From contig JAAWEK010000008.1 in NCBI GenBank assembly GCA_022794265.1, forward strand, positions 178,248-242,247: a DNA stretch of 64,000 nucleotides, read 5' to 3'. Under the pieces are notes generated by a model. The model was not told where the DNA came from. It made no database searches and saw only the letters and a list, made by a program, of their open reading frames with translations. The position numbers and the translations under genes are program-made. Positions 23,266 to 39,650 of the stretch are shown here, one piece after another. How positions within the stretch are numbered: the stretch's first letter is position 1; every line of letters starts with the position of its first letter. This DNA is from Lachnospiraceae bacterium. GTDB taxonomy: Bacteria; Bacillota; Clostridia; Lachnospirales; Lachnospiraceae.

Positions 23266-23276
23266 TGTTAAAATAT

Positions 23277-23319: not shown

Positions 23320-23337
23320 GCGGCAAGAATTTAGATA

Positions 23338-23366
23338 TTGACTATATTAAAATATTTTGTTATAAT
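23338..23366 (+). promoter_or_regulatory. Strong promoter of the AT-rich biosynthetic cluster
   Basis: TTGACT (23338-23343) and TATAAT (23361-23366) are spaced by exactly 17 bases, with TG at 23358-23359 giving an extended -10. This is the best promoter in the window and the only good one seen before the 16-kb gene run. Confidence 0.75.
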
Positions 23367-23399
23367 TCGTTTATAGTATACGAGATTAGAATAAAAGGA

Positions 23400-23459
23400 A
23401 ACACTTAATTTACAGAAGATATTTCCATTGGTTATATTTTGTAAATTGGGTGTTTTTTT
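23400..23459 (+). terminator. Leader terminator / attenuator before the biosynthetic cluster
   Basis: AACACTTAATTTACA (23400-23414) pairs over all 15 positions, two of them G-U, with TGTAAATTGGGTGTT (23440-23454), followed by more T to 23459. It begins about 27 bases after the expected transcription start and lies 50 bases before the first cluster gene. RNA polymerase must therefore read through it to express the operon, which suggests attenuation or processive antitermination. Confidence 0.75.
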
Positions 23460-23508
23460 GTTGTTAAAAAATTAACTGATTAGGCAGAAGGTTTAAGAAA
23501 GGTATTGT

Positions 23509-24591
23509 ATGAGAAAAGAAATTGAATTAATTTTAATTGGATCGATTTCAAACAGAACGGAAGAAGAAGAGGCGCTGTTTGAAAAATTATTAAAACAGAA
23601 ACTTGATTGGGCCTGGATAACAGGACAGTTAATTCGTCATAGGCTGAATGGTAATTTTTATTCAGGCATGACAAAAAAACAAAGAGGATACATAGTTGAT
23701 AAGGTCAGACAAACATTTGATATGTTATCATGCTGTTATGAAGCATGTAACAGGGTAAACCTGGATTTTGTACAGCAGTTATTTGAAAAGTGTAATGAAG
23801 AGGATATTCCGGTTGCGGGACTGAAGGGTGTGATTTTTAACACAACGATATATCCTTTATCGTCTAGAAAGTCTAACGACATAGATGTTTTGGTCAGAGA
23901 AAAGGATTTGGGAGTATTTGATCAAATTATGTGTAAAATGGGATTTATCCAAAGTCTGGATGGCGGACGGAGTGAGGCATCAAAAAAGGACAAAATAATT
24001 CAAAGAATGCACCATCATGATTTGGTTCCATACTTTAAAAGAATTGAATTGCCTTATATGGATTGTATAAAGGTGGATGTGAATTTTCAATTTGATACAA
24101 ATGAAAATGAAATAACAGATCAGATATTAGCAGATGGTATTCAGATAAATAAAGGGAATGGATATAATGTTCAGGGACTGGTTTGGCAAAATCATCTTTT
24201 ACATTTATGTGTTCATTTTTATAGAGAGGCATCCAATTCATTATGGACAAGCACTGCCAGAGATGTGGATTTATATAAATTGGTAGATATTCAAAACACT
24301 TTTCGAACTTATTCTGAAGAGCAATTAATTGCCTGGGCTGATAGTGTTCAGAAATATTGTTTAAACAAGCAATGCTATTTTACTTTATATTATTTAAATC
24401 AATTTTATCCATGTAAAACATATTCAGAAGTTATGAATTTAATAGAGCCAGCAGATTTAAGTTTTATTTCGGAAGTCCGGATAATCGGTGAAAACAGGGT
24501 AGAAGAGAGAAAGACAAATTTTTTTGATCAGACATTTAATATGAATTATGGAACAGACTTCTTGGATTTTGATTTATCACGGGTATTTTAA
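23509..24591 (+). CDS. Nucleotidyltransferase-family protein (NTP_transf_5)
   Basis: The 360-residue protein has the signature of the NTP_transf_5 family (PF14907): VAGLKGVIFN, then SRKSNDIDVLV (residues about 121-131), a minimal nucleotidyltransferase core with the DxD pair, and a conserved His/Asp segment further on (HLLHLCVHFYRE). Members occur in capsule, lasso-peptide and other specialised clusters; their substrate is usually unknown. It is the first gene of the AT-rich operon, 49 bases behind the leader terminator. AGAAAGGTATTG precedes the ATG. Transfer of a nucleotidyl group to a small molecule or protein is inference. Confidence 0.75.
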   Translation: MRKEIELILIGSISNRTEEEEALFEKLLKQKLDWAWITGQLIRHRLNGNFYSGMTKKQRGYIVDKVRQTFDMLSCCYEACNRVNLDFVQQLFEKCNEEDIPVAGLKGVIFNTTIYPLSSRKSNDIDVLVREKDLGVFDQIMCKMGFIQSLDGGRSEASKKDKIIQRMHHHDLVPYFKRIELPYMDCIKVDVNFQFDTNENEITDQILADGIQINKGNGYNVQGLVWQNHLLHLCVHFYREASNSLWTSTARDVDLYKLVDIQNTFRTYSEEQLIAWADSVQKYCLNKQCYFTLYYLNQFYPCKTYSEVMNLIEPADLSFISEVRIIGENRVEERKTNFFDQTFNMNYGTDFLDFDLSRVF

Positions 24592-24622
24592 AATAATTTA
24601 TGTTAACAAGAGGGGTGGACAA

Positions 24623-25576
24623 ATGTTTGATAGAAGTTATTTATACTATAATGAAGCAGTAAGTTTATTTTGTGGAGAAATATGTAATTCACCAAGAATG
24701 GCTATTATTTATCCAGTGTATGGATGTAATTTTTCATGTGATGGATGTTTATGTTCGGATTTTAACATGGAAAAGGTATACATGGATTTTGAAAAATTTA
24801 AAGAATTAACAATTCAGTTAAAAGACCAAGGTGTAAAATCTATTGAATTTTGCGGAGGCGGGGAACCGCTCTTGCATCCTTGCATTTGTGAAATGATATC
24901 CTGGATTACGAACAAACTTCATATGCATTTGGGAATAATTACGAATGGATCGTTATTAACAGAGCAACTGTCATATTATATTGTTACTCGTGCCAGTTAT
25001 ATTCGTATATCATTATATGATAATAGTTATCATAATGTTATGAAAAAAGTTGAGCGATTAATAGCTCTTAAGAAATCCGTAGATAGTGACATCGTTATTG
25101 GTACAAAATTTTTGATTAATAAACATAATGAAAATCTGGTATTAGAGCGTGTAAAGGAAGTTGCAGAAAATAAAGGAATTGGTCATGTGTCTGTAAAGGG
25201 ATTGAGAGGAAATGATAAAGTTGAAGATTATACTGGAATCGGTGTAAAAATTAATGAACTGGGTTATGAAAAAGTACATGTGAATTTGAATAAGAGTTAT
25301 CTGAGGGGGAGATGCTGGATGGCTCCGATACATACGCTTATTGATCCATTGGGAGATGTATATATTTGTTGTTATTATATGGACAGAAAGAAGGAGCATT
25401 GTATAGGTAATGTATTTGAAAAACCATTTGCTGAAATTTGGGGAAGCAGGGAACATATAAAGAAAAATAGCATTATAGATCCGAATAAATGCAATGTTTA
25501 TGATTGCAGATGGCATGAGTATAATAGGAAGATGTTTTCATTATTAAAAAACAATACCCATCATCAGTTTTGTTAA
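24623..25576 (+). CDS. Radical SAM enzyme with C-terminal SPASM-like cysteines
   Basis: The 317-residue protein binds a 4Fe-4S cluster through CxxxCxxC (Cys35, Cys39, Cys42, in GCNFSCDGC). It has the SAM-binding GGGEPLLHP motif and a TIM-barrel pattern (GIITNGSLL, IRISLYD). The C-terminal part has RCWMAPIHTLIDPLGDVYIC, then CIGNVFE, and CNVYDCRW, a SPASM-like arrangement for auxiliary clusters. Such enzymes modify peptides, sugars or nucleosides by radical chemistry. I start at 24623, after AGAGGGGTGG, not at 24548 inside the previous gene. No precursor-peptide gene is visible next to it, so a small-molecule substrate is at least as likely as a peptide. Confidence 0.85.
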   Translation: MFDRSYLYYNEAVSLFCGEICNSPRMAIIYPVYGCNFSCDGCLCSDFNMEKVYMDFEKFKELTIQLKDQGVKSIEFCGGGEPLLHPCICEMISWITNKLHMHLGIITNGSLLTEQLSYYIVTRASYIRISLYDNSYHNVMKKVERLIALKKSVDSDIVIGTKFLINKHNENLVLERVKEVAENKGIGHVSVKGLRGNDKVEDYTGIGVKINELGYEKVHVNLNKSYLRGRCWMAPIHTLIDPLGDVYICCYYMDRKKEHCIGNVFEKPFAEIWGSREHIKKNSIIDPNKCNVYDCRWHEYNRKMFSLLKNNTHHQFC

Positions 25577-25625
25577 TTTTATGTTGCTCTTCTAAAAAAA
25601 TAGAAAATACAGTAAAGGAAATGTG

Positions 25626-26351
25626 ATGAAGATAATTAATTTATTAACTCTGAATAATATTGAGATAACAAATATTGCAACAGACCCTAAGTATCGACAT
25701 TTGGTTCAGAGAAAAATAAAGCTGCTTTCACTTGCTTCAGCCATAGCAGATGCAAATATTTCGAATTACTTTATAATAGAGAATATTGATAATGATAATA
25801 ATAAAGCAGAGCAAATAAGGGATTTTGTGAAAACACTTAATCAGGGGTGGTATGAGATTAAGAGGATTAAATCAGTGACATGTGTATCGAAAGCAGGGGT
25901 TTTTAATGAAATAATGAATTTGGCTGAAGGGGAGACAATTGCAATAAGAGAGTTTTTTGAAATAAAATATTGTGGCTATGCCTGGATAACTAAGAATCAT
26001 AATACATATATTGAAGTAAGAAAAGGAGGATTTTTTGGTTTTTGGACTTCAGGAGATATTCCCACGTATTATTTGATTGGACCAGACGGCGAGGTAATGA
26101 CAGAGTATTTGTCAGATACGGATGGATACTATAGGTATGATTATGATAAAGAAAGCTGGTGCTGGAGTCAAAATGAATCGTTATCAAAGGAGATTGTCAG
26201 TCTGGATAAGAAGTATTTTTTGAAAATTAATTATATTTTAAGAAAAATCAATAATGACAGAGCCAATATGCATTTAGCCTGGATAATTTCTGGAGAAGAA
26301 TTAAAGGTATTTGATTTGTATATTCCTATAGGGGTTGGTGTAATTGAATGA
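25626..26351 (+). CDS. Unknown protein homologous to the central domain of the cluster's PEP-synthase-like enzyme
   Basis: I do not recognise this 241-residue protein as a named family. Its second half (KYCGYAWI, YIEVRKGGFFGFW, GPDGEVM, YRYDYDKESW, INNDRANMHLAWII, LKVFDLYIP) aligns motif by motif with the central part of the product of 28383-30281 (EYCGFAS, YIEAAKGGFTAFY, DSDGKKE, YFYDGKWW, NNARVEWIL, VYLFDI). The ATP-grasp and phosphohistidine parts of that protein are absent. It may be a stand-alone substrate-binding subunit. I use the ATG at 25626, seven bases after AAAGGA; a GTG at 25623 is also possible. Its stop overlaps the next start. Confidence 0.6.
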   Translation: MKIINLLTLNNIEITNIATDPKYRHLVQRKIKLLSLASAIADANISNYFIIENIDNDNNKAEQIRDFVKTLNQGWYEIKRIKSVTCVSKAGVFNEIMNLAEGETIAIREFFEIKYCGYAWITKNHNTYIEVRKGGFFGFWTSGDIPTYYLIGPDGEVMTEYLSDTDGYYRYDYDKESWCWSQNESLSKEIVSLDKKYFLKINYILRKINNDRANMHLAWIISGEELKVFDLYIPIGVGVIE

Positions 26352-27574
26352 TTATGTTAAGAATAATAGAAGTTTTGCTAACATCATATTTACTATATAA
26401 TTTAGTGAAGATACCGTTATCATACAAAAAAATAATACATTTAAAATCTTCAATAGAGGGAGATTTCCCAGGTAAGGAAAGATTTTTGATGATTATTCCA
26501 GTTTTTAAAGAACAGGAAAGAATAGCTAAATGTATTGAAAATATCGAGAGGTTGGATTGGGAGGCATATAAGTTAGATGTATGTATTTGTACAACACAGA
26601 AAGAACCTGTTGATGGAAAGGATACACAGACAATTCTGGAAAAGGTTCTAACAAATGAAAAACTGAAGTACCATTATGAAATTGTAAGATATCCTTTTAC
26701 AGATGGAAATATGGCAGAACAGGTTAATTATGCATATTCGCAGGTTGAACGCAAATATGATATCATATGTATTTATAATGCTGATTCTATGCCGGAAAGA
26801 GCGTCAATTCGGTATGCAGATATATGTTTCAGGAATAAGCAGATAGATTATGTTCAGCAGCGTGCAATATATTCAAATTATTACAAAAATAATATTTTTT
26901 CGATAGGATATAGCATTTATCAGAGCATTTTTGAAATTAATAAGAATTTAATAAAGGATATAAATAATAATGGTGAAAATGTTGTGGGACGTGCATTATA
27001 CATACGTAAAAGTGCAATTAATGACAAAATATATCCTACAGATTTCTTTTGCGAGGATATGGCGCTGTCATTTGAATTAATTGAGCGGAATAAAAAAATT
27101 ACAACTATTCCTTGTTTTGAAATTAATGAGCCGCCCCCAAGATTGAGAGATATTATTAATCAACAATATGTGTGGTTTCATACTGCTTTAAAGGTAAAAG
27201 AAATAACTAAGTATGTTATGAACAGATTTAATTGCACAGAGCTTAGTTTAAATACGAAGAAAAAAGCATTTAGAAGAATAATAGATAATATTATTTGGAT
27301 TGCAACATCACCGCTTATGCTGTTGATTACAATATGTGATATAAGGTATATTTTATGTATGTATTGTTATGCAGTAGTGCTTGTACTGGCAGTTGATATA
27401 TGCTTTAAAGTACGAAAATATAAGACAATATTATTTGACGCATTTTGTTGGGTTTTATACCTGTTTGTTTTGAGTTTGGGACCAATCAAATGCCTGGGAA
27501 AGAAATTTACGATGTTGTTTAGGGGAAAAGAACCTGATGTGAAATATAAAACACCGAGAGGAAAGGGGCAATAA
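26348..27574 (+). CDS. Membrane-bound family 2 glycosyltransferase
   Basis: The 408-residue protein has an N-terminal membrane helix, a GT-A domain (FLMIIPVFKEQERI; CIYNADSMPE with the DxD-type acid; FFCEDMALSFEL as catalytic acid; NQQYVWF as the Q-x3-W element), and three or four C-terminal membrane helices (residues about 310-385). This layout matches processive or polyprenol-linked GT2 enzymes. It overlaps the preceding gene at ATGA and ends one base before the phosphorylase gene. It would transfer a sugar from a nucleotide donor to a membrane-proximal acceptor; donor and acceptor are unknown. Confidence 0.8.
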   Translation: MIMLRIIEVLLTSYLLYNLVKIPLSYKKIIHLKSSIEGDFPGKERFLMIIPVFKEQERIAKCIENIERLDWEAYKLDVCICTTQKEPVDGKDTQTILEKVLTNEKLKYHYEIVRYPFTDGNMAEQVNYAYSQVERKYDIICIYNADSMPERASIRYADICFRNKQIDYVQQRAIYSNYYKNNIFSIGYSIYQSIFEINKNLIKDINNNGENVVGRALYIRKSAINDKIYPTDFFCEDMALSFELIERNKKITTIPCFEINEPPPRLRDIINQQYVWFHTALKVKEITKYVMNRFNCTELSLNTKKKAFRRIIDNIIWIATSPLMLLITICDIRYILCMYCYAVVLVLAVDICFKVRKYKTILFDAFCWVLYLFVLSLGPIKCLGKKFTMLFRGKEPDVKYKTPRGKGQ

Positions 27575-27575
27575 G

Positions 27576-28361
27576 ATGAAAATAGGAATTATTGGAAGTA
27601 CCGGAGTGCAAATCGGGTGTCTGACAACAGAATATGAAATGCAGACAAAAGAAATGAATAATAAGATATTTAACTATTATAAAGGAATACGCTCTGGTCA
27701 TGAGATATATTTTGTGACAAGAAATAACTTTACTGGTTCAGTGCCACCGCATTTAGTTGATTATCCTGGAATTATGAAATTATATAAGGCACTGGAAGTT
27801 GACTTTGTGCTTGCAAGTGCAATTGTTGGAAGTCTTTCCTATGATTATCATATAGGTGATTATGTTGTTCTAGATCAGTTTATTGATATGACAAAGAATA
27901 ATTATCATACAGTATATGATAATAAGGCATTTGCATTTGTTGATTTTACAAACCCATATTGTCCTAATGTCCGGGATGCCCTTATAAATAGCTGTAAGAA
28001 TTTAAATGTTTCTTTTCATACTTCAGGATGTTATGTAGGTGTGGATGGACCCAGGTATGAAACAGCTGCGGAGGTAAAAATGTATGGTATGTTAGGAGGT
28101 CATGTTGTTGGTATGACAAATGTAACAGAAGCAATTATGGCTCGTGAATTAGGAATATGTTATGGGGCTATAGCATTGATTTCTAATTATGGGGCGGGAA
28201 TGGATGCTGATGAGATACTGAGACAGGATTGCTATTCCAAAACAATGGAATATAAAGACAGTACGATAGCAATAATTTGTAATTTGATTGATACAATTCA
28301 AGAATATGACGATTGTTCCTGCAGAACGAAAAATTCAGATATGATTTACACAAATTTATAA
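27576..28361 (+). CDS. Purine nucleoside / methylthioadenosine phosphorylase-like enzyme
   Basis: The 261-residue protein belongs to the trimeric PNP/MTAP family: KIGIIGSTG phosphate loop start, PPHLVDYPGIMKLYKAL, ASAIVGSLS, GDYVVLDQFID, then GVDGPRYETAAEVKMYG and GHVVGMTNVTEA. These enzymes cleave a purine nucleoside with phosphate to free base and ribose-1-phosphate. In the base-binding loop the sequence is SNYGAG; an Asn there, rather than the Asp of adenine-specific MTAP, would fit a 6-oxopurine or unusual base, but this is inference from memory of the family. A phosphorylase inside a biosynthetic operon suggests base removal, base exchange or removal of a SAM by-product. GAAAGGGG precedes the ATG. 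Confidence 0.8.
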   Translation: MKIGIIGSTGVQIGCLTTEYEMQTKEMNNKIFNYYKGIRSGHEIYFVTRNNFTGSVPPHLVDYPGIMKLYKALEVDFVLASAIVGSLSYDYHIGDYVVLDQFIDMTKNNYHTVYDNKAFAFVDFTNPYCPNVRDALINSCKNLNVSFHTSGCYVGVDGPRYETAAEVKMYGMLGGHVVGMTNVTEAIMARELGICYGAIALISNYGAGMDADEILRQDCYSKTMEYKDSTIAIICNLIDTIQEYDDCSCRTKNSDMIYTNL

Positions 28362-28382
28362 ATGGAAAGGAAGAGATAAGCA

Positions 28383-30281
28383 TTGCAGACTATCGAGAGA
28401 TTAGGAAATATTCAGAATCCTAATTTTGATGAACTGGGTAGAAAAATATATTGGTTGGATTTTTTGAAAAAAAAGGGTTATGACGTATCAGAAGGCTATG
28501 CTATTCCAAAAAGCTTTTTTAATCGGTTTATCAGCGAAAATAATATAGATATAAATAGTTATAAAAACAAACCGGTTTTTAAATATGATGAAATAAGGCA
28601 GACTATATATAAAAATGATTTTCCGGAAGAAATGAAAAATATTTTGTATGGTGTTTTTTCTACATTGAAATCTCCGTTAATTGTGAGAAGCTCGTCATCA
28701 TATGAAGATATGGAGGATTACAGTTGTGCCGGAATGTTTACCAGTGTCAATGGTGTAAATAATTTTGATGAATTTTTAAATGCAATTAAGATATGCTGGA
28801 TTTCATCATTTGATGAATCAATAGATTATTATATTAAAAATACGAGAGACTTTGCAATCAGTCTTCTTATTCAGGAAGAATTGAATTACGAATTTGGGGG
28901 GGTTGCTTTTAGTGTAAATCCAATATCCGGCAATGCAAACGAAATTCTGATTGAGAGCAGTAAAAGCGGACCAAAAGCTGTTGTAACGGGATCTGGAGAG
29001 ATTAATAATATATTGATTAGTAAATATGAAGAGGAGGAACAGGAACCGGTATTTTTACAAATTAAAGAGACATTACTTGCTTTGGAAAGCTATTTTGGCA
29101 CATTTGTTGATATGGAGTGGTTATTTGATGGTAAAACACTATCTGTCCTTCAGGCAAGACCTGTTACTACCATTAAGGAAAATCAACAGTCATATATTGA
29201 TGTGGATGATGATGTAGCGATGACATACCAACTAAAAAACCTGTCCAGGCTGCATTCCAGGTGGATTGAAAAGAAAAAAAAGGTACGAAAATGTTGTAAA
29301 CAAAATAATATCAAAGTTGGTGGATTTTACTATTGGTTTAGAGATAATGATCCGGAAGCCAATTCAATAGATGAGATTTTAAATTTGATGCCAAATGCAA
29401 ATAGTTTTGAAGTGCATGATGGTAAAGATGTTTTGCTTGTTCAAAAAGAAGATGTTAAAGAGACAGTAAAACAATATGCAGCCAGTGCATTGAGAATAGC
29501 GGAATCGGTTCCAACGGAGTATTGTGGTTTTGCGAGCGTAATAGATGATAAATACTATATTGAAGCTGCAAAGGGAGGATTTACTGCTTTTTATTCCGGC
29601 GAATTTGAAGTCACAAAATATGTTGTTGATTCTGATGGCAAGAAAGAATTTTCTGATGAAAAATATTTTGATGAGGAATATTTTTACGATGGTAAATGGT
29701 GGGCAAAGCGTTCTATTGAGCCAACATTGGTCAGACTTTCTGATAATATTATTAAAGATGTGATTCGTATCACTTTAATCATTAATAAGAGTTTTAACAA
29801 TGCCCGTGTGGAATGGATATTAAATGAAAAAGGTGTATATTTATTTGATATTACTGTAGAAAATGACAGGCTGCTGTCTCAATATGGAGAGGGAAAGATT
29901 ATTTCAGCTGGAAAATGTTGTGGAAATTCAAAGGTATTAAAAGAAATTACTGTCTTTGATGATTATATTAATAAAGTATCAATTCGAATGGGATATCAAT
30001 TACTTCAAATTGAAGCCGATGACAGGATAAAGAAAATAAAAGACTCTTTGTCTATAGAAGAAGGTGATATAGTTGTTTGTGAATATCCAAATGAAAAACT
30101 GGCCGTTATTCTTGACAAAGCAAAGGGATTCATTTTCGAAAGAGGTTCATTACTGTGTCATTTTGCTATTATTTTAAGAGAGAGGCATATTCCGGCTGTG
30201 GTGTATCCGAAAGCATTGGAAAGGATAAAGGATGGCCAGATGGTATCAATTTCGGATGGTGAGGTTAAAATTGAGAAATAG
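28383..30281 (+). CDS. PEP-synthase-like dikinase/kinase lacking the PEP-binding domain
   Basis: The 632-residue protein has a PPDK_N ATP-grasp domain (residues about 1-270: IVRSSSSYEDMEDYSCAGMF, GGVAFSVNPISG, DMEWLFDGKTLSVLQARP) and a C-terminal phosphohistidine swivelling domain with His593 in LCHFAIILRERHIPAVV. Between them lies a novel domain (about 290-500), shared with the small protein encoded at 25626. The usual third, PEP/pyruvate-binding barrel is missing. So a phosphate from ATP probably goes through His593 to another substrate, as in rifampin phosphotransferase or the Campylobacter glutamine kinase Cj1418. Start is TTG at 28383, after GGAAAGGAAGAG. The substrate is unknown. Confidence 0.75.
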   Translation: MQTIERLGNIQNPNFDELGRKIYWLDFLKKKGYDVSEGYAIPKSFFNRFISENNIDINSYKNKPVFKYDEIRQTIYKNDFPEEMKNILYGVFSTLKSPLIVRSSSSYEDMEDYSCAGMFTSVNGVNNFDEFLNAIKICWISSFDESIDYYIKNTRDFAISLLIQEELNYEFGGVAFSVNPISGNANEILIESSKSGPKAVVTGSGEINNILISKYEEEEQEPVFLQIKETLLALESYFGTFVDMEWLFDGKTLSVLQARPVTTIKENQQSYIDVDDDVAMTYQLKNLSRLHSRWIEKKKKVRKCCKQNNIKVGGFYYWFRDNDPEANSIDEILNLMPNANSFEVHDGKDVLLVQKEDVKETVKQYAASALRIAESVPTEYCGFASVIDDKYYIEAAKGGFTAFYSGEFEVTKYVVDSDGKKEFSDEKYFDEEYFYDGKWWAKRSIEPTLVRLSDNIIKDVIRITLIINKSFNNARVEWILNEKGVYLFDITVENDRLLSQYGEGKIISAGKCCGNSKVLKEITVFDDYINKVSIRMGYQLLQIEADDRIKKIKDSLSIEEGDIVVCEYPNEKLAVILDKAKGFIFERGSLLCHFAIILRERHIPAVVYPKALERIKDGQMVSISDGEVKIEK

Positions 30282-30311
30282 ATTTGTAAGACTATTATGG
30301 GAGGCAGAGTT

Positions 30312-30752
30312 ATGAATGAAGAGGACATGGCTTTTCTTATTATTAAGCATGAGGCAGTTCAGCGGGGTCTGATTGGTGAAATATTAGGACGTATAGAAAA
30401 AAAAGGTTTGAAAATAATAGCCCTGAAAATGTTTGAGATGAAAAAGGAACAGGTAATGTGTTTATATGACAATTGCACAGAATTACCTTTTTTTGAAGAA
30501 CTTTTGGAATATAATTCAGATTGTCCGGTTATCGGTATTGTTGTTTCAGGACCTGCTGCAAATAAAGGAGCAAATGAAGTGTGCGGGGTGATTGGTCTGG
30601 GTGGAACCGTTCGGGGAGATTATGCACTTAGTAATTCACGTAATGTTTTGCATTGTTCGGATGAAGGAAAGACCCAAAGAGAGATTGATTTATTTTTTGG
30701 TAATGAGGAAATATTTAATTATAGCAATACTTGGGAAGGATGGCTGAAATAG
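30312..30752 (+). CDS. Divergent nucleoside diphosphate kinase
   Basis: The 146-residue protein has the NDK fold and keeps catalytic His114 (RNVLHCSDE), the Arg of TVRGDYAL and the Lys of LIIKHEAVQRGL. It departs from the near-invariant KPDGVQRGL (here KHEAVQRGL) and from NxxHGSD (here LHCSD). NDK moves the gamma phosphate between nucleoside triphosphates through phosphohistidine. Its position in this operon and its divergence suggest a pathway-specific copy that makes a triphosphate of an unusual nucleotide. I start at 30312, with GGGAGG seven bases upstream. A housekeeping ndk elsewhere is expected but not visible here. Confidence 0.8.
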   Translation: MNEEDMAFLIIKHEAVQRGLIGEILGRIEKKGLKIIALKMFEMKKEQVMCLYDNCTELPFFEELLEYNSDCPVIGIVVSGPAANKGANEVCGVIGLGGTVRGDYALSNSRNVLHCSDEGKTQREIDLFFGNEEIFNYSNTWEGWLK

Positions 30753-30778
30753 TTTTTTGGCGAAATGATGGTTTGAAT

Positions 30779-32492: not shown

Positions 32493-33006
32493 ATGGAAAG
32501 AAGAATTTGAATATGATGAACGATTTATAGCAAGATATAAAAAATTAATTGGTATGCTGGATGGCGTCCCTTTTTCATCTGTACTGGATTTGGGCTGCGG
32601 AGTTCAGTATTTAAAGTATATTATACCAGATGAAGTGTACTATACGGGAGTTGATTTGTATAAGCATAAAGAAGATACGTTAATTTGTGATTTTAACAAA
32701 AAAGAATTTGTGTATGAATTGGATGCATATGATCTCACAATATCTGCAGGAGTATTGGAATATATATATGAAATACCGGACTTTATACATAATATATCCT
32801 GTATAACTACAGCTTTTTATTTATGTAGTTATCATTTTAGGGAATTTACAAAGTATAAACCAGATATTTGGACAGATACATTATTATCCTTTAGGGAATT
32901 TGTTGAAATAGCAGAAAAAGAAAATTTTGTATTGGTAAAGGCTATTACAAAAGCAAATGACAGAGATGATAACAGGGCAACATTAATGCTATTTGAAAAG
33001 AGATAA
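32476..33006 (+). CDS. SAM-dependent methyltransferase (class I)
   Basis: The 176-residue protein has the Rossmann SAM motif VLDLGCGVQYLKYI (residues about 36-49), the acidic ribose-binding strand YYTGVDLY, a post-II CDFN segment and the motif LTISAGVLEYI. It is short for the class, with no separate substrate domain. It overlaps the pyruvyl transferase gene by 17 bases and has AGAAAGGA upstream. It probably methylates an intermediate or tail of the pathway product; the target atom is unknown. Confidence 0.75.
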   Translation: MSYENKWKEEFEYDERFIARYKKLIGMLDGVPFSSVLDLGCGVQYLKYIIPDEVYYTGVDLYKHKEDTLICDFNKKEFVYELDAYDLTISAGVLEYIYEIPDFIHNISCITTAFYLCSYHFREFTKYKPDIWTDTLLSFREFVEIAEKENFVLVKAITKANDRDDNRATLMLFEKR

Positions 33007-33026
33007 TCTAAAAAAGAAAGGAGTAT

Positions 33027-33074
33027 ATGACATCAAATTTGAAGTGTGTCATACAAAGAAACTATGGATATTAA
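33027..33074 (+). CDS. Tiny ORF (15 codons) overlapping the carrier-protein start
   Basis: A strong Shine-Dalgarno, AAAGGAG at 33017-33023, is followed by ATG at 33027 and a 15-codon frame, MTSNLKCVIQRNYGY. The frame stops at 33072-33074, past the carrier-protein ATG at 33064. The carrier protein has no ribosome binding site of its own. The tiny ORF may couple translation to it, be the remnant of a frameshifted N-terminus, or encode a peptide. I cannot decide between these from sequence alone. Confidence 0.35.
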   Translation: MTSNLKCVIQRNYGY

Positions 33075-33315
33075 AGAAACAGTAATAATGTGTTGCAGGG
33101 AGATTATTGAGAAAAGCAGAGGGAATATTGAGGTTGATATGGATACCGCCATCTCCAGGGATAAAGGGATAGATTCCCTTGGAATTGTGAATCTGGTTCT
33201 GGAATTAGAAGATAAATTTGGTGTTGAATTGGATAATTATCTGGCTGATATAAGAAAATGTGAAACCATAAGGGACTTAGTTGACGTAATGACCGGTATA
33301 GTTGAGAAAAAATAA
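33064..33315 (+). CDS. Acyl/aminoacyl carrier protein
   Basis: The 83-residue protein is a standard ACP fold with the phosphopantetheine attachment Ser38 in GIDSLGIVNLVLELEDKF. It is small and acidic and has no attached domains. It is followed 23 bases later by a SerRS-like amino acid:carrier-protein ligase, so its load is probably an amino acid rather than a fatty acid. The ATG at 33064 lacks a Shine-Dalgarno; translation may be coupled to the tiny ORF just upstream. A GTG at 33046 is another possible start. Confidence 0.85.
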   Translation: MDIKETVIMCCREIIEKSRGNIEVDMDTAISRDKGIDSLGIVNLVLELEDKFGVELDNYLADIRKCETIRDLVDVMTGIVEKK

Positions 33316-33338
33316 TTCCGGAGATAGGAAAGATAGAG

Positions 33339-34481
33339 ATGAAAACGGTTAAAATCGAATTAGACAGCAATGTAGATACAGAGGAATTTGTTAAAGTTAT
33401 TGGATTTATTTCTGAAAGTATTTCAGGCTATAAAATGAAAAACAATATGTTGATGGTAGATATAGAGGATAGCGTAAATGAAGAGGATATATCAATAGCA
33501 GTACAAAATCTGGCGGCAAAATATGTGTCTGCCAGGCTCATTGAAAAGAATATTTATCAGAATAGAAAAGAAATTGAACATTATTATAATGAGTTTAAAT
33601 CAATATATTATTTTGACGAAGGAATGGCCTCTTTATCGGGAGTATCTTTGTTTTTATTTAGATACTTTGAGAACGTTTTTGAGAGTAAAGTGAAAGAGAT
33701 ATTTGAGAAAATGAATTGTAATTTAGTTACTAAACTGTTTCCTGTCATGCTGCCGATATCCTGTTATAAAAAAACAGGATATTTGAAACGTTCTCCTCAA
33801 TATGCGATTTTTTGCTGTTCAGCCATAGAGAATTTAGATTTACTTAATAATATAAATGAATTTGATGAAAAAGAGTATAAGGAGTTTGTTAATTATCCGT
33901 TATATGCGTTGTCACCATCCGCATGTTTTCATGTATATGAAGAATATAAAAACAAAGTATTAGATAAGAATACGGTTGTTACGTTTACTCAAAGTGTATT
34001 TAGAAATGAGGGACGATTTAACTTTGCACAGTTTGGACGAATGAGGGATTATCATGTAAGAGAAATTGTTTTTATTGGTGATGAGGATTTCGTTTCTTTA
34101 TCCAGAGAGCAAATGTTGGATATTACGAAATCCTTTATTGATGAAATTGATTTGGATGCTAAAATTCAAATAGCATCAGATCCGTTTATTTTACCTAAAA
34201 TGCAAAAATTTAAGAAGATACAAACGATTGACAAAAGCAAGTATGAATTACAAATATCATATGAAAAAGGTAAATATATTTCTGTAGCCTCATTCAATCT
34301 TCATGGTAATGCATTTACACATTCCTTTGAATTCTCAGTAAAAGATAAGGAAACGGTTACAGGGTGTATTGGATATGGTTTGGAGAGGTTCGTATTTGCT
34401 TTTTTGAGTCAATATGGTGAAGATTATGAAAATTGGCCCAAACCAATAAAACAGGAATATATTTTAAAGAATGGGGAATAG
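33339..34481 (+). CDS. SerRS-like amino acid:[carrier protein] ligase
   Basis: The 380-residue protein resembles the catalytic core of archaeal-type seryl-tRNA synthetase. Seen: PSACFHVYEEY with Cys196 as a likely zinc ligand, motif 2 VFRNEGR (residues 220-226), followed by FGRMRDYHVREIVFIG, and motif 3 GYGLERFVFAFL (about 345). The tRNA-binding arm is absent. Enzymes of this type in Bradyrhizobium and other bacteria activate glycine or alanine and load it on a carrier protein. The carrier-protein gene lies directly upstream, which supports this role. The N-terminal 90 residues are extra and of unknown function. The amino acid used cannot be read from the sequence. Confidence 0.8.
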   Translation: MKTVKIELDSNVDTEEFVKVIGFISESISGYKMKNNMLMVDIEDSVNEEDISIAVQNLAAKYVSARLIEKNIYQNRKEIEHYYNEFKSIYYFDEGMASLSGVSLFLFRYFENVFESKVKEIFEKMNCNLVTKLFPVMLPISCYKKTGYLKRSPQYAIFCCSAIENLDLLNNINEFDEKEYKEFVNYPLYALSPSACFHVYEEYKNKVLDKNTVVTFTQSVFRNEGRFNFAQFGRMRDYHVREIVFIGDEDFVSLSREQMLDITKSFIDEIDLDAKIQIASDPFILPKMQKFKKIQTIDKSKYELQISYEKGKYISVASFNLHGNAFTHSFEFSVKDKETVTGCIGYGLERFVFAFLSQYGEDYENWPKPIKQEYILKNGE

Positions 34482-34487
34482 AAGAAA

Positions 34488-35060
34488 ATGGTTCATAAAG
34501 AAAAAGAGATAAAGTTGTTATTAACCAAGGAAGAATATGAGATGATACAATCATTATTTCCTTTTGAAAAACCATATGTTCAGAGTAATTATTATTATGG
34601 ACATGAAAATATAGATACGCATATTACAGTTAGGATTCGAAAGAAAAACGATTTGAAATTACAGATTAAAATACCGGTTTGTATCAATGGCTCTCTTCAT
34701 ATTAAGGAAGAATATGAAGGAACAATCGATAAGGTTTATGATATCCTTCCGTTAGAAAAAATAAAAAATATTTATGATGTCGGTGCTGATAGTGATTTGT
34801 ATCTGCTTGGCAGATTATGCACAAATAGAAGGGTTTGTACGTTATTTCACGATATTGAAATAGCGTTGGATTTGAATGAATATTTGGGAAAAACTGATTA
34901 TGAACTGGAAATAGAATATAAAGGGGAATATCCATCTCAGGTGGTAGCTGTATTGGAGAGAGAGAATATTTTCCTGAAGGGTAACACAAAGGGTAAAAAA
35001 ACCAGATTTATGGAACAGCTACAGGAAGGCTGTGCCTGTAAAAGAGAAAAGGGTATTTGA
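34488..35060 (+). CDS. CYTH-domain protein (triphosphate tunnel family)
   Basis: The 190-residue protein begins with the CYTH signature ExExK (EKEIK, residues 5-9). It continues with the tunnel's basic and acidic strands (ITVRIRKKNDLKLQIKIP, YELEIEYKGE, GKKTRFMEQL). CYTH/TTM enzymes hydrolyse inorganic triphosphate or thiamine triphosphate, or cyclise ATP. In an operon with NDP-kinase-like and thymidylate-kinase-like genes, a nucleoside triphosphate substrate is plausible. It starts six bases after the ligase gene. No second (CHAD) domain is present. Confidence 0.75.
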   Translation: MVHKEKEIKLLLTKEEYEMIQSLFPFEKPYVQSNYYYGHENIDTHITVRIRKKNDLKLQIKIPVCINGSLHIKEEYEGTIDKVYDILPLEKIKNIYDVGADSDLYLLGRLCTNRRVCTLFHDIEIALDLNEYLGKTDYELEIEYKGEYPSQVVAVLERENIFLKGNTKGKKTRFMEQLQEGCACKREKGI

Positions 35061-35064
35061 TTTT

Positions 35065-36762
35065 ATGAATGATAAGAAATTACAAGAGCAGGAAGGAGAG
35101 AAATCTGATCTTATTGTTAGTGAGATTGGTTACAATATCATGATAAATAAATTTATACAAAATAAAATTATATCTAATAATGATAAGTATAATCCTAGAC
35201 AGTTAACATGTTTTCATAAACCCTGGGCGATTTTATATGGTTCCATAAGGAAAGAGTATTTTGACTTATACTTACTGACTTCGGTTTTTTATGAAAACTA
35301 TGGATATGGAAATTATTTTCCGTTATTTGCTTCATGTGAGAATTTAAATCAAAATTATCACCGGTTTGCAAAAGAAATATTAGAGCCAAGATTCGGAGTA
35401 AGCGTAGGAAAGATTACATACGAAAATAAAGAAGAATTCGTTATGAATATTTCTGAAAGACTAGTAGCTGAGGAGAGAATCTTAATTCCGGCAGATTTAA
35501 TTGAACTCCCATATTATGAGGATTACAAACTAAATCATCATATACATTTTTTTGTAATCAAAGGTTTTGACATAGAAAAAGAGATATTTTATGTTTTAGA
35601 CAATATGCAAATAGATGGCGGCTCAGATGGTATATATAAAAATTTTGCAATTACTTTTGATTGTATGTATTGTATGGCTAAAGCATGTTTTGATTCATAT
35701 TTTGTATCAGAATCAATACCATTTGTTTGGGTATTGAAAAGTCTGAAAAAGGATGATGAAGAGGGATATACGGTGTCAGAGGCATTAAAAAATCATAAGG
35801 AAGAGTTAGAACAAGCCGGTATCCATACAGAGCTATTATCATATCCGGAAGAGTACATCATATCCAATCAGGTAAGTGGCGTAATGAATTTTTCAAGATC
35901 TTATGCAAAAATTCTAAACTATAAAGAAGTTTATTATGATATATTGTTTAAGAAGCTTATGGAAAATAATATTGATGAAAATACATTACAGAATTTAATG
36001 TCGAAGAAAAAACAGAATTATAATAACTGGGAAAAATTAAGAACTTTAGTTATGTATCATTATGCAAAACAAAATGGCCGCTTAGGCGAACTGGAAAAAG
36101 AATATAGACAATGTGTATCAGAAGATAAAGAATTTTTTGATTATGTAATAAATGCTATAAAAGATATAAAACAAAATAAGATTAGTCCGGATACTCCGGA
36201 TGAGGTATATAAAGCCTGTTTATATAATCCTAAGCGGGCAGATGTTTCAATAAATGGTAATAAAGTCTTGATTAATCATAGTAAAATGGAAGTTTATGAT
36301 ACATGGAAAAATCAGGATAACGCTACGCAAATTTTATTTAAAATAAGACCGGAAGATGAAATTGAATTTAGTTGTGAACTACACATAAAAAATGAAGTAG
36401 ATTTCCCGTTTTTTAGCGGTATGATTATAAAAAACAATGACGGAAAAATGCTATTGTTTGGAAATGATGCCATGTGTTCCATGGCATTGTACTGTCCTCA
36501 ACTGGAAGAAAAGTTTACAATAAATAAAGAAAACTTTTATGATGAAACTATGAAACTGGATTGTATTATTTCTCAAAGTGAAATGATGTTCTGCTTCACA
36601 GACTCAAAAAACAAGGAAGGTAATTCCTGGAAGATTAATAAGGTTGGTAATATAAGCTGGATTGGTCTTATTTCAAAAACCTGGAATGCCATAGAGCATC
36701 AAAGTGAGTTTTACAATATAAGAACAAAGATAAATGGTAATTTTGTCGAGATATTCAGATAG
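35065..36762 (+). CDS. BtrH-like acyltransferase, predicted to off-load the carrier protein
   Basis: Residues about 35-200 fit the BtrH_N fold (PF14399), a papain-like domain: Cys49 in QLTCFHKPW, His159/161 in NHHIHFFVIKGFD and Asp179 in YVLDNM form a probable Cys-His-Asp set. BtrH moves an aminoacyl group from carrier protein BtrI to an aminoglycoside in butirosin synthesis. The middle is helical; the last 150 residues look like a beta-sandwich and may bind the acceptor. With the carrier protein and its ligase upstream, transfer of an amino acid to the scaffold is the best guess. I use the ATG at 35065; a GTG at 35032 inside the CYTH gene is also possible. Confidence 0.6.
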   Translation: MNDKKLQEQEGEKSDLIVSEIGYNIMINKFIQNKIISNNDKYNPRQLTCFHKPWAILYGSIRKEYFDLYLLTSVFYENYGYGNYFPLFASCENLNQNYHRFAKEILEPRFGVSVGKITYENKEEFVMNISERLVAEERILIPADLIELPYYEDYKLNHHIHFFVIKGFDIEKEIFYVLDNMQIDGGSDGIYKNFAITFDCMYCMAKACFDSYFVSESIPFVWVLKSLKKDDEEGYTVSEALKNHKEELEQAGIHTELLSYPEEYIISNQVSGVMNFSRSYAKILNYKEVYYDILFKKLMENNIDENTLQNLMSKKKQNYNNWEKLRTLVMYHYAKQNGRLGELEKEYRQCVSEDKEFFDYVINAIKDIKQNKISPDTPDEVYKACLYNPKRADVSINGNKVLINHSKMEVYDTWKNQDNATQILFKIRPEDEIEFSCELHIKNEVDFPFFSGMIIKNNDGKMLLFGNDAMCSMALYCPQLEEKFTINKENFYDETMKLDCIISQSEMMFCFTDSKNKEGNSWKINKVGNISWIGLISKTWNAIEHQSEFYNIRTKINGNFVEIFR

Positions 36763-36811
36763 AATTGAATTTAAGTGTAAATAATATTTTGGAGGAGTAA
36801 TAAATAAAGCG

Positions 36812-37813
36812 ATGATTAAACTGGAAAATGTTTCAAAAGAATTTATTACAGCAAAAAAATATCCTGGTTTTAAGGGTGCAGTAAAAGGACTATTTTCAAA
36901 TGAAAAAGAGAAAAAAAAGGCAGTAGATAATATATCATTTGAGATTGAAGATGGTGAAATGGTGGGATATATAGGTGAAAATGGTGCCGGAAAATCTACG
37001 TCTATAAAAATGATGACAGGAATTATTGAGCCGACAAAAGGAAATATTGAAGTGGATGGAATTGTTCCATACAAAAAAAGAATGGAAAATGCCAAAAACA
37101 TAGGAGTTGTTTTTGGGCAGAGAACACAGTTGTGGTGGAATTTGCCGCTGTGTGAATCTTTTGGAATTCTTAAAGAAATTTATAAAGTCAGTGATAATGA
37201 ATACAAAAAAAGAATGGAATTTTTAAATGAAGTTCTGGGGTTAGAAAAGTTTATTAACAGTTCCGTAAGAAATCTTTCGTTAGGACAAAGAATGAGAGCG
37301 GATTTAGCAGCTTCGTTATTACATAATCCGAAAACTTTGTATCTGGATGAACCAACCATTGGATTAGATGTTGTGGTAAAGGATAAGATACGTACGGCAA
37401 TAAAGGAAATTAACAGAGAGTATCAGACGAAAGTCATATTGACTACTCATGACTTAGGTGATATTGAGGAAATATGTAAACGTATCCTGATTATAGATAG
37501 AGGGAAAATAATTTATGATGGTACTGTGGAGGAAATTAAGAAAAAGTATGGAAAAATGAGAAAAATTTCTTTGGATTTGAAGGATATCAGTGTAGTATAT
37601 AAAGTTGATTTTAATCAAATATATCAGTTATCAGATCAGGATTTTAATTATGCAGTAGATGGGAAAACAGTGACATATTCAATTAACAGAGATAAGGTAA
37701 ATGTGTCTTTAGTAATTTCAAAAATAATGCTGGAAACAGATATACAGGATATACGAATTAAGGAGACGGATATAAGTGAGATTGTGAAACAGATTTACAT
37801 AAGTGGAATTTAA
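36812..37813 (+). CDS. ABC transporter ATP-binding protein (ABC-2 exporter)
   Basis: The 333-residue protein has Walker A GENGAGKST (residues about 54-62), Q-loop GQRTQLWW, signature RNLSLGQRMRADLA, Walker B LYLDEPTIGLD and the switch His in LTTHDLGD. A 100-residue C-terminal extension follows. QLWWNLP and the DxGDIEEICKR segment are typical of the ATPase that pairs with DUF990-type permeases, two of which follow. It would power export of the cluster product. GGAGGAG lies about 14 bases before the ATG, an unusually wide spacing. Confidence 0.9.
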   Translation: MIKLENVSKEFITAKKYPGFKGAVKGLFSNEKEKKKAVDNISFEIEDGEMVGYIGENGAGKSTSIKMMTGIIEPTKGNIEVDGIVPYKKRMENAKNIGVVFGQRTQLWWNLPLCESFGILKEIYKVSDNEYKKRMEFLNEVLGLEKFINSSVRNLSLGQRMRADLAASLLHNPKTLYLDEPTIGLDVVVKDKIRTAIKEINREYQTKVILTTHDLGDIEEICKRILIIDRGKIIYDGTVEEIKKKYGKMRKISLDLKDISVVYKVDFNQIYQLSDQDFNYAVDGKTVTYSINRDKVNVSLVISKIMLETDIQDIRIKETDISEIVKQIYISGI

Positions 37814-37825
37814 TGGGAGGCGGTT

Positions 37826-38674
37826 ATGAAAGATAGCAGTTTAAATTTTAATAAGAAAATAAAAAATTTGTATATATATACGCCGTTTGTTAAAAGCGTG
37901 TTAAAAGATAATTTAGCCTATAAAGGAACTTTTTATTTGTATATTTTATGTAAAATCCTATGTGTGTTTATTACATATTACTTATGGAGAGCTATCTTTT
38001 TGAGTTCCGACAATGCCAGTCTTGGTGGATTTACCCAAATAGAGATGGTTACATATATATTTATGTCGTTTGTCTGTTCCAATATAGTATTTATTAGTAT
38101 GACAACAAAAATTGGAAACGATGTAATGGATGGCTCTATTGCAATTAATTTGATAAAGCCTATCAGTTACAAGTTAAAATTATTATCAGAATCTTTTGGT
38201 GAAATGATTTATAAACTTATATTTCCGTCCTTATTTATATGGGGAGGAGTAGAATTTTATAAATTTTATACTTTGGAAAATTATCATTTTTTGATTAGCA
38301 ATGCCCTTTTGTTTTTAATAAGCAGTTTTCTGGGATTTATAATTTATTTTTTATTTGAATTCTGTTTTGGTATGCTGGCGTTTTACAGTACATATGTATG
38401 GGGAATGGAAATTATAAAAAATAGTATTTTGACATTTTTAACTGGTCAATTAATTCCGTTAACATTTTTTCCGGATATAATTCAAAAAATATTTGATTAT
38501 TTTCCATTTGCATTGATGAACTATGGACCGGTAATGATATATTTAGGAAAATTTAACCGTTCAAAAATAATATTTTTAATTGGGAAACAAATGCTGTGGA
38601 TATTATTGCTGGAGATTTTTAGTTATTGTCTATGGAAAAAGATAACGAAAAGAATTAGTATACTAGGAGGTTAA
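37826..38674 (+). CDS. ABC-2 permease, first subunit
   Basis: The 282-residue protein has six hydrophobic segments after a charged N-terminus (PFVKSVLKDNLAYKGTFYLY) and matches the DUF990/ABC2_membrane_6 pattern, including DGSIAINLIKPISYKL in the coupling region. It lies 12 bases after the ATPase gene and three before the second permease. The two unlike permeases probably form a heterodimeric pore. GGGAGG precedes the start. Confidence 0.85.
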   Translation: MKDSSLNFNKKIKNLYIYTPFVKSVLKDNLAYKGTFYLYILCKILCVFITYYLWRAIFLSSDNASLGGFTQIEMVTYIFMSFVCSNIVFISMTTKIGNDVMDGSIAINLIKPISYKLKLLSESFGEMIYKLIFPSLFIWGGVEFYKFYTLENYHFLISNALLFLISSFLGFIIYFLFEFCFGMLAFYSTYVWGMEIIKNSILTFLTGQLIPLTFFPDIIQKIFDYFPFALMNYGPVMIYLGKFNRSKIIFLIGKQMLWILLLEIFSYCLWKKITKRISILGG

Positions 38675-38677
38675 ATT

Positions 38678-39469
38678 TTGAGATATTATATAAAAATATA
38701 TAGGTTATTTTTAAGCCAGTATATAAAGTCGTTAATGCAATCAAAACTAAATTTTTTTGTTGGAATGTTCGGAAGTCTGTTTGTTCAGGCAAGCGGGATT
38801 GTATTTCTTTATCTGGTATTTGAGCAGATTCCATTGTTAAATGGATGGTCCATGGAAGAACTTATCTTTATTTATGGATTTTCACAGATTCCGAAAGCCC
38901 TTGACCATTTATTTGCAGACTATATCTGGTTGTTGTCATCAAGGATGATTACCAATGGTGAATTTGACAGGTACTTATTACGCCCGATTCCGGCTTTTTT
39001 TCAATTAATGTGTGACAGGTTTCAGTTAGATGCCATAGGTGAGTTGCTGGTTGGATCGGCATTGGTAATTATGTCGGTAAGCAATGGTACAATACAAATA
39101 ACTTTTCATGGTTGTATTTTATTTGTTATTTCGATTTTAGCTGGAATTTTAATTTTTATGTCAGTTAAATTGTTTTTTGCATCATTAGCATTTTGGCTGA
39201 CAAATAGCGCACCCATATTGCAATTAGGATATGAAATATCAAATTTTACAAAATATCCGGTATCTATTTATCCAAAACCAATACAATTTATATCATCATT
39301 TATTGTTCCATTTGCGTTTGCATCTTTTTATCCGGCCTCGTATTTTATCAGAGACATGTCTTTGTGGACAACAATAGCAGCAGAAGTAGCGGTATCATGT
39401 GTAGCCTGGATAATTGCTTATAGCGTCTTTGTGAAAGGTATGTCAGTATATAATAGTGTGGGAAATTGA
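38678..39469 (+). CDS. ABC-2 permease, second subunit
   Basis: The 263-residue protein has six membrane segments and the family's coupling motif NGEFDRYLLRPIPAFFQLM. It starts with TTG at 38678, seven bases after AGGAGG. It completes the ATPase-permease-permease exporter and is the last gene of the AT-rich operon. No clear terminator follows; the next gene has its own promoter 105 bases on. Confidence 0.85.
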   Translation: MRYYIKIYRLFLSQYIKSLMQSKLNFFVGMFGSLFVQASGIVFLYLVFEQIPLLNGWSMEELIFIYGFSQIPKALDHLFADYIWLLSSRMITNGEFDRYLLRPIPAFFQLMCDRFQLDAIGELLVGSALVIMSVSNGTIQITFHGCILFVISILAGILIFMSVKLFFASLAFWLTNSAPILQLGYEISNFTKYPVSIYPKPIQFISSFIVPFAFASFYPASYFIRDMSLWTTIAAEVAVSCVAWIIAYSVFVKGMSVYNSVGN

Positions 39470-39602: not shown

Positions 39603-39650
39603 TAATAAGTTAAACCACGCAATGGACAATGTGTTTGATTGGAGATTTTT

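Follow-up and report, generated by a model that had tools for sequence, protein, structure and literature searches.

The 64-kb window analyzed here, i.e., the whole stretch of DNA spanning positions 178,248 to 242,247 of contig JAAWEK010000008.1 from a Lachnospiraceae bacterium (G000:C16:178248-242247 in our labeling; genome G000 is 91% complete), contains an island of 17 co-directional genes on the + strand between positions 23509 and 39469, which we studied as a candidate biosynthetic cluster. The initial annotation of this DNA had described seventeen tightly packed genes, and all of them were found; counted from the first start codon of each open reading frame (ORF), the intergenic gaps range from -56 to +49 bp. 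We compared the 17 deduced proteins with the Pfam, NCBIfam, and PDB collections, applied curated cut-offs, and assigned the genes as follows (values are E-values unless stated otherwise):

23509..24591, + strand: NTP_transf_5 nucleotidyltransferase (NTP5; PF14907, 1.2e-25)
24548..25576, + strand: radical SAM/SPASM enzyme (PF04055, 5e-9; SPASM, 1.2e-8; CxxxCxxC motif at residue 60)
25623..26351, + strand: 242-aa protein that stands alone and is homologous to the middle part of the PPDK-like phosphotransferase (residues 316-492 of the latter, 24.7% identity, 1e-9)
26348..27574, + strand: GT2-like glycosyltransferase with a hydrophobic C-terminal part (Glyco_tranf_2_3, 0.016, under the cut-off)
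27576..28361, + strand: MTAP/PNP-type nucleoside phosphorylase (PF01048, 1.1e-35)
28383..30281, + strand: PPDK-like phosphotransferase with ATP-grasp, middle, and phospho-His domains (PPDK_N, 8e-36; PEP-utilizers, 1.4e-13; His593)
30297..30752, + strand: divergent nucleoside diphosphate kinase (NDK; PF00334, 1e-30)
30731..31417, + strand: TMPK-like P-loop kinase (PF02223, 7e-6, just under the cut-off; P-loop at residue 25, DR at 94)
31362..32492, + strand: member of the polysaccharide pyruvyl transferase family (PyrT; PF04230, 8e-28)
32476..33006, + strand: small methyltransferase-like protein (MT; Methyltransf_23, 0.0098, under the cut-off)
33046..33315, + strand: carrier protein (ACP; PF00550, 4e-7; D43-S44 invariant in 6/6 aligned sequences)
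33339..34481, + strand: ligase of the amino acid:carrier-protein ligase (aaCPL) type, a SerRS-type class II enzyme (NF005479, 2e-33; PDB Bll0957, 2e-33)
34488..35060, + strand: CYTH (triphosphate tunnel) protein (PF01928, 6.6e-14; ExExK invariant in 4/4 sequences)
35032..36762, + strand: BtrH-like acyltransferase with a papain fold and an additional region at the C terminus (PF14399, 1.4e-6, just under the cut-off; Cys60, His172)
36812..37813, + strand: ABC exporter ATPase (PF00005, 5e-27)
37826..38674, + strand: ABC exporter permease 1 (PF06182, 6e-25)
38678..39469, + strand: ABC exporter permease 2 (PF06182, 9e-53)

The family list given in the initial annotation holds for the 11 of 17 proteins that score above their curated Pfam cut-off (NTP_transf_5, radical SAM/SPASM, PNP_UDP_1, PPDK_N/PEP-utilizers, NDK, PS_pyruv_trans, PP-binding, CYTH, ABC_tran, and two ABC2_membrane_6 proteins) and for the ligase, which lies exactly at the cut-off (tRNA-synt_2b, 29.3/29.3 bits) and has stronger NCBIfam and PDB matches. 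Four assignments fall below, namely the GT2-like (15.6/27 bits), TMPK-like (26.2/27), methyltransferase (16.1/27), and BtrH_N (29.0/29.7) proteins, and the 242-aa ORF at 25623-26351 belongs to no Pfam or NCBIfam family. The start codon of the TMPK-like gene may in truth be an ATG at about 30779. As annotated, the operon ends with an ATPase-permease-permease exporter (ABC_tran plus two ABC2_membrane_6 proteins), includes nucleotide-type kinases (PPDK-like, TMPK-like, and NDK), and carries no nonribosomal peptide synthetase (NRPS) or polyketide synthase (PKS) module among its 17 genes. A lasso cyclase or precursor peptide family was likewise not recognized among the 17 proteins by Pfam or NCBIfam, very short ORFs not having been searched systematically.

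The genes for carrier-protein aminoacylation that had been proposed are present: the protein described as a "SerRS-like" ligase is of the aaCPL type, and it is accompanied by the ACP and the BtrH-like protein. The nearest solved relative of the ligase is Bll0957 (profile comparison over the catalytic part), an amino acid:carrier-protein ligase; in NCBIfam, the PRK00960 serine-tRNA ligase model (1.7e-36) is slightly ahead of NF005479, and neither match reaches its curated cut-off. The window ligase possesses a SerRS_MJ-type class II catalytic domain, and its residues C196, E242, and C343 are invariant in 9/9 sequences and align with Cys/Glu/Cys of Bll0957, positions which we take to be the Zn-binding residues. 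The ACP gene adjoins the ligase gene, and Ser44 of the carrier protein is kept. Judged by its family, the aaCPL very probably loads an amino acid onto the clustered ACP. The window thus resembles the Bll0957 system in having the same class II ligase type beside a carrier protein gene; it differs in that its ligase is a distant relative (the NF005479 cut-off is missed) and in that the neighboring genes are unlike those reported in the 2010 paper on aaCPL neighborhoods (PMC2922099).

When the BtrH-like protein is aligned in eight divergent rows, no residues are invariant other than His172, Gly178, and the initial Met. In butirosin biosynthesis (BtrI/BtrJ/BtrH), an amino acid is loaded by an ATP-grasp ligase onto a stand-alone carrier protein and is then moved by a BtrH-type transferase. 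The window shares with this system a carrier protein and a putative BtrH-like transferase, the latter just under the BtrH_N cut-off, but loading would occur via a SerRS-type aaCPL, and nucleotide kinases, the PNP-type phosphorylase, NTP5, and CYTH are added. CYTH proteins act on triphosphates, and a natural BtrH-CYTH fusion occurs in a related locus (L019:11344-12948).

Among the nucleotide-type enzymes, NTP5 has no solved relative by sequence at an E-value of 0.01. Its structural model (pLDDT 73.4, pTM 0.72) matches pol-beta-type nucleotidyltransferases, the best matches being a nucleotidyltransferase-like fungal protein, MenT1, and ANT(2'')-Ia, at E-values of 1e-4 to 2e-3 with TM-scores by query of only 0.3-0.4; D124, D126, and D190 are invariant in 4/4 sequences. 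The nearest solved relative of the PPDK-like protein is rifampin phosphotransferase (RPH; 9e-52, with the ATP-grasp profile covering residues 16-273 and the phospho-His domain residues 568-648). Both proteins combine an ATP-grasp with a phospho-His domain; the window protein differs in its middle part, for which the PDB comparison revealed no solved sequence relative, and it stays under the full-length cut-offs of RIF_Ptrans_rph (85.5/999 bits) and PEP_synth (113.3/739.75 bits). RPH and ATP-grasp enzymes come up as matches (best E 1.1e-5) for a low-confidence model of the 242-aa protein (pLDDT 59.9, two rows); this protein and the middle part of the PPDK-like protein may thus both be degenerate ATP-grasp domains.

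The phosphorylase is 43% identical to the PNP of a related cluster in G918:C54 (L097:6753-7538). It has Asn-Tyr-Gly where MTAP has Asp-Tyr-Asp (TDYD motif), with Asn204 in both the window and the L097 proteins; the adenine-specific Asp of MTAP is thus absent, and the MTAP equivalog cut-off is missed (172.7/274.85). Because Asn replaces the Asp of the TDYD motif, a 6-oxopurine nucleoside is suggested as the most likely substrate, a reading that turns on one residue. The NDK has K17, R106, N116, and the catalytic H119, which are kept in 4/4 divergent NDKs aligned, and misses the NCBIfam equivalog cut-offs. In the 91% complete genome G000, no PF00334 match other than this NDK was found, and no PF02223 match at 0.01 other than the TMPK-like gene. 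PF00334 matches were also not found in the genomes G017 and G836. The GT2-like protein has a homolog (24% identity, 1e-7) at L055:7239-8864, which adjoins another NTP5 gene.

The island had been described as clearly more AT-rich than both flanks, and the comparisons agree: its GC content is 31.2% vs 40.9% in the flanks (3001-23000 plus 40001-64000), and third-position GC is 0.22-0.34 in the 17 island genes vs 0.36-0.44 in eight genes of the flanks. Its neighbors are leuA on the upstream side and, downstream, a polysaccharide locus (LicD/glycosyltransferase/rml), the LicD gene of which (39639) is separated from the island end by 169 bp. Two features mark the upstream border:

23277..23313, + strand: terminator-like hairpin after leuA (16 pairs, then TTTTTT)
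23338..23366, + strand: promoter-like site (TTGACT, 17-bp spacer, TATAAT, TG preceding the second hexamer; 11/12 positions, consensus match only)

Position 23338, formerly given as the start of the operon, is therefore that of the promoter-like site; the genes begin at 23509. The single strong promoter proposed previously is indeed the top-scoring of 96 such sites in the region, but sites of this type are no commoner there than in shuffled sequences (mean 100.3), and the site is credible mainly because of its position directly after the terminator-like hairpin. Rfam gave no match at the gathering score within 23000-40000. Among eight genomes of the genus, our own included, a close leuA (79-88% identity) was found in five others, and the ~13-17 kb past leuA in these five carry polysaccharide-type genes instead of the island; apart from matches to the generic ABC-ATPase and, in G005, to LicD, island genes were not present there. 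The remaining two genomes have only a 52% leuA homolog and lay outside this comparison. The absence of the island behind leuA in five same-genus genomes indicates that it is probably a horizontally acquired operon. A plasmid origin was considered and dropped: tblastn of BtrH against plasmids gave no match, and NTP5 gave only one 22% Streptomyces match with no recognized core genes nearby.

A core of this gene set recurs in Lachnospiraceae, in another Bacillota metagenome-assembled genome, and in the Paenibacillus family. It comprises NTP_transf_5, an aaCPL or adenylation domain, a carrier protein, a BtrH-like protein, an exporter, and often a TMPK-like kinase. A lack of joint conservation of the genes had been named as something that would refute the proposal; it is not refuted for the core, which recurs, but the whole set does not recur, and the best relative, G918:C54, shares 5/17 genes by direct BLAST (NTP5, aaCPL, TMPK at 4e-15 with 27% identity, PPDK at 1e-73, and PNP at 1e-76). 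ACP-like and BtrH-like proteins in G918:C54 were recognized only via proteins of other clusters, the BtrH-like one being devoid of a Pfam match; this locus also encodes two PPDK-like proteins, a carbamoyltransferase, sugar enzymes, and two ABC transporter proteins that form a pair of another type.

The aaCPL is rare, occurring in 5/97 relatives and, at 1e-50, in 5/397 family genomes (own genome counted in both). A scan of genome contigs with this protein yielded 25 loci, nine of them at an identity of at least 36%. In L012/L026, L018, L019, L022, and L023, the aaCPL is accompanied by an ACP, by BtrH-like proteins, some of which were recognized by BLAST alone, and by the three-gene exporter seen in the window; all five loci also possess NTP5, the copies in L018 and L023 lying somewhat farther out. 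NTP5 was not detected by BLAST with window proteins in L020/L011, L021, L024, and L025/L013, where only short or cut stretches were available. CYTH is present in four clusters (window, L012, L018, and L019). In L012, both the ligase gene and that of the exporter ATPase are frameshifted. Accessory genes vary among the loci reached via aaCPL and include HPr-kinase-like, PHP, guanylate kinase, NUDIX, RibD_C, ATP-grasp, adenylation domain, racemase, and TMPK-like genes. In the same-genus genome G004, a carrier protein is apparently fused to an aaCPL (L013:3128-4261). Our own genome encodes a second aaCPL of about 40% identity (G000:C30:68517-69620; L009:13514-14638) accompanied by an AMP-binding enzyme and by ACPs and BtrH-like proteins, two of each; no NTP5 match lies within the 20 kb read there.

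An NTP5 profile built from four rows detected 1/398 phylum genomes at 1e-40 (our own), seven matches in 4/4 genomes of the aaCPL loci at 1e-20, and matches in 12/295 genomes of the P. kobensis family. The PPDK-like protein was found at 1e-25 in 2/299 family genomes, one of them our own. A second cluster of P. kobensis (L053) combines, within 6 kb, BtrH-like, NTP5, radical SAM, NDK, and TMPK-like genes, the last scoring below the cut-off at 21.8 bits, with an ORF judged ACP-like by eye; neither an aaCPL nor an exporter match was found in it. Mur-ligase-like and DAP-epimerase genes lie beside this NTP5/TMPK/NDK cluster (L053:13222-18206). A related-looking cluster in G910:C3 (L093:9590-16286) encodes a divergent NDK (43% to that of L053) and an HPr-kinase-like protein (27% to that of L012); its pol-beta-like and radical SAM genes were named by eye, and no NTP5 match was obtained by BLAST.

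We assessed the co-occurrence of the kinase families with NTP5 in 17 genomes carrying 20 NTP5 loci, all chosen for having NTP5; 43 PF02223 and 24 PF00334 matches were counted, and 29 PF01326 stretches were merged by hand to 18 places. A PF02223 kinase lies within 10 kb of NTP5 in 11/20 loci (0.19 expected), an NDK in 3/20 (0.10 expected), and PPDK_N in 3/20 (0.09 expected). With the window left out, the counts are 10/19, 2/19, and 2/19, corresponding to Poisson P values of 8e-15, 0.004, and 0.003 (expectations rounded by hand), which are only indicative because genome sizes were rounded, some of the genomes are closely related, and each was picked for NTP5. A PF02223 kinase occurs within this distance in 8/14 of the loci that had been reached via NTP5. 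Of the PPDK_N ORFs with fewer than 700 aa, those of G000 (633 aa), G910 (671 aa), and G918 (559 and 665 aa) lie no more than 10 kb from NTP5; two others are found in G1041 (293 aa, 14 kb from NTP5) and in G017:C57 (105 aa, not near NTP5), and the remaining PPDK_N places have ORFs of at least 778 aa. BtrH_N (PF14399) matches at 0.1 are many and mostly under the cut-off.

Comparison of the 19 other NTP5 loci with the window proteins (BLAST at 1e-4) detected aaCPL in 10 of them, ACP in 10, the permeases in 10 and 10, and the ABC ATPase in 17, followed by BtrH (4), CYTH (3), PPDK, TMPK, and radical SAM (2 each), NDK, PNP, the 242-aa protein, GT2, and MT (1 each), and PyrT (0). Twenty random stretches from 11/17 genomes served as controls and gave 0 for all window proteins except the ABC ATPase (6) and PyrT (1); the control stretches are shorter than some of the case loci, in which two stretches were combined. 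Five of the 10 loci with aaCPL had been reached via this protein, and aaCPL is present in 5 of the 14 loci reached via NTP5. NTP5, aaCPL, ACP, and the same three-gene exporter are found together in 7/19 loci (G017:C18, G836:C86, G835:C90, G834:C4, G837:C157, G910:C2, and G1041:C30), five of which were reached via aaCPL. Distance matrices over seven clusters, evaluated by Mantel correlation, co-vary for aaCPL and ACP (r 0.75, p 0.0004), for permeases 1 and 2 (r 0.92), and for the ATPase and the permeases (about 0.8).

We consider the island to be best explained, with modest confidence, as an acquired biosynthetic cluster that couples an amino acid bound to a carrier protein with a phosphorylated unit derived from a nucleoside or sugar and then exports the product. 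Its membership in a family of clusters spread over Lachnospiraceae, another Bacillota, and the Paenibacillus family, and its biosynthetic role, are highly probable and the aminoacyl-carrier step nearly as much so; the chances of a nucleoside- or sugar-phosphate scaffold are evenly poised, and the exact kinase relay is a tentative proposal. We infer the substrates, the order of the steps, and the product as follows. The aaCPL, as its family strongly suggests, would activate an amino acid and load it onto the carrier protein; the BtrH-like transferase would then, by comparison with butirosin, move the aminoacyl group onto an amine or hydroxyl of the scaffold. For this scaffold, a nucleoside or the sugar of one is envisaged, on which the MTAP/PNP-type phosphorylase would act, and a relay running from the PPDK-like protein via the TMPK-like kinase to NDK could raise a hydroxyl to the mono-, di-, and triphosphate. 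NTP5 might use the triphosphate from this relay, or an ordinary NTP, to form a phosphodiester or phosphoramidate. In view of the BtrH-CYTH fusion, the CYTH protein may process a triphosphate next to acyl transfer. Radical SAM, GT2-like, pyruvyl- and methyltransferase-like enzymes would decorate the product, which the ABC transporter very probably exports.

In a variant of this pathway, CYTH would act as a self-resistance triphosphatase, as suggested by thmC of 4'-thiothymidine, for which PMC12691670 describes a triphosphatase as self-resistance. The radical-SAM nucleoside antibiotics treated there (albomycin, 4'-thiothymidine) likewise pair a radical SAM enzyme with a nucleoside kinase-type gene but have another gene set, and the term "carrier protein" is absent from the main text of that paper. 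No pathway matching the set had been known to the initial annotation, and none with this core was found in the literature by narrow phrase matching, mostly outside subscription journals, which makes this a weak absence; the island seemingly represents an uncharacterized form of carrier-protein-based biosynthesis.

Several observations weigh against the proposed aminoacyl nucleotide pathway. The full set of 17 genes was not found in any other genome searched, and that the window cluster is complete as a pathway is our presumption from a gene combination encountered once. No PF02223 kinase lies within 10 kb in 9/20 NTP5 loci (G835:C90, G836:C86, G910:C2, G906:C7, G918:C54, G1006:C7, G886, G967, and G017:C18), NDK and PNP are present in few of them, and the locus counts are not independent because the G886/G967 and the G865/G1041/G1096 loci look related. 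The TMPK-like protein of the window matches its family weakly, and the G918 homolog scores only with AAA_33/dNK. NTP5 distances do not track those of the exporter ATPase (r -0.06) and follow those of aaCPL (r 0.36, p 0.06) and ACP (r 0.48, p 0.014) weakly, so that the family appears modular, with its modules reshuffled; strict co-inheritance of all modules is unsupported by the distance matrices. Finally, the substrate of the kinases and CYTH could be the hydroxyl of an amino acid and not a nucleoside.

This last point leads to an alternative that we regard as a minor but real possibility: within the same family, the kinases would polyphosphorylate a hydroxy-amino acid (e.g., a seryl residue) and NTP5 would cap the phosphate. 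The triphosphate-directed activity of CYTH proteins would suit such a route, and HPr-kinase-like proteins are found in the NTP5 clusters L012, L018, L019/L054, L055, and L065 in place of the PPDK-like protein of the window, an assignment that is itself weak (PF07475 under the cut-off in L018, L055, and L065, a P-loop match only in L012, and BLAST kinship only in L054). The model would be lasso peptides such as paeninodin and pseudomycoidin, in which, according to PMC9266682, a kinase is paired with a nucleotidyltransferase-annotated protein, the HPrK-like PsmK polyphosphorylating Ser and PsmN, a possible counterpart of NTP5, adding a hexose. In the window, however, no cyclase, protease, or precursor was recognized among the 17 genes, carrier-protein genes being present instead, and the PNP, TMPK-like, and NDK genes suit a nucleotide better.

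Decoration of a surface polysaccharide, i.e., the addition of an amino acid and pyruvate to the glycan of the neighboring LicD/glycosyltransferase/rml locus, is unlikely. The location of the island next to that locus, its GT2-like and pyruvyl transferase genes, and the proposal in the 2010 note that aaCPL systems transfer an amino acid to a surface sugar (PMC2922099) would fit. However, the relative L012 stands in another context (OTC and amylase genes adjoin), the GC content changes sharply towards the polysaccharide locus, from which the island is set apart by the gap before LicD and by its own exporter, and all 5/5 same-genus genomes followed have polysaccharide-type genes but no island downstream of leuA. 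A random accumulation of acquired genes devoid of joint function would agree with the single occurrence of the whole set and the reshuffled modules but is very unlikely in view of the tight operon, the uniformly low GC content, and a co-occurrence in distant genomes far over expectation. A viperin-like phage defense making a modified nucleotide was rejected as extremely improbable: the nucleotide kinases and a match of the radical SAM protein to PADLOC pVip models (5.5e-15, part of the core domain) recall it, but this protein has a SPASM domain and stays far off the curated NCBIfam viperin cut-off (45.3/180 bits), eight of 10 cluster proteins scanned lack a PADLOC match at 1e-3, the 242-aa protein has only a partial one (2.4e-4), and aaCPL, BtrH, and exporter are out of keeping with defense.

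If the aminoacyl nucleotide pathway is correct, aaCPL aminoacylation plus a nucleotide-kinase relay would be added to the bacterial routes to secreted small molecules, in a family of clusters that spans distant Bacillota and, in the window at least, lacks an NRPS, PKS, or precursor-peptide signature. It is conceivable, though doubtful, that a dedicated three-kinase relay (phospho-His phosphotransferase, TMPK-like kinase, and NDK) generates a non-canonical triphosphate to which a pol-beta-type transferase joins an aminoacyl unit supplied by a carrier protein, so that gut and soil Bacillota would secrete aminoacyl nucleotide conjugates through a previously unrecorded class of natural-product pathway. 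NTP5 beside a TMPK-like kinase and a carrier protein provides a search handle for further clusters, and Paenibacillus kobensis NBRC 15729 is a named host in which the family can be tested.

Elsewhere in the window, an AbiLi-like ATPase is split over two overlapping frames (1655-3729; PADLOC 4e-11 and 2e-17). The 241-aa protein encoded beside it has no PADLOC match; the two may represent a broken defense pair. Positions 3826-11866 hold a five-gene block encoding SWIM-type, MoxR-type AAA, and VWA-type proteins (assigned by eye), without a PADLOC match at 1e-3.

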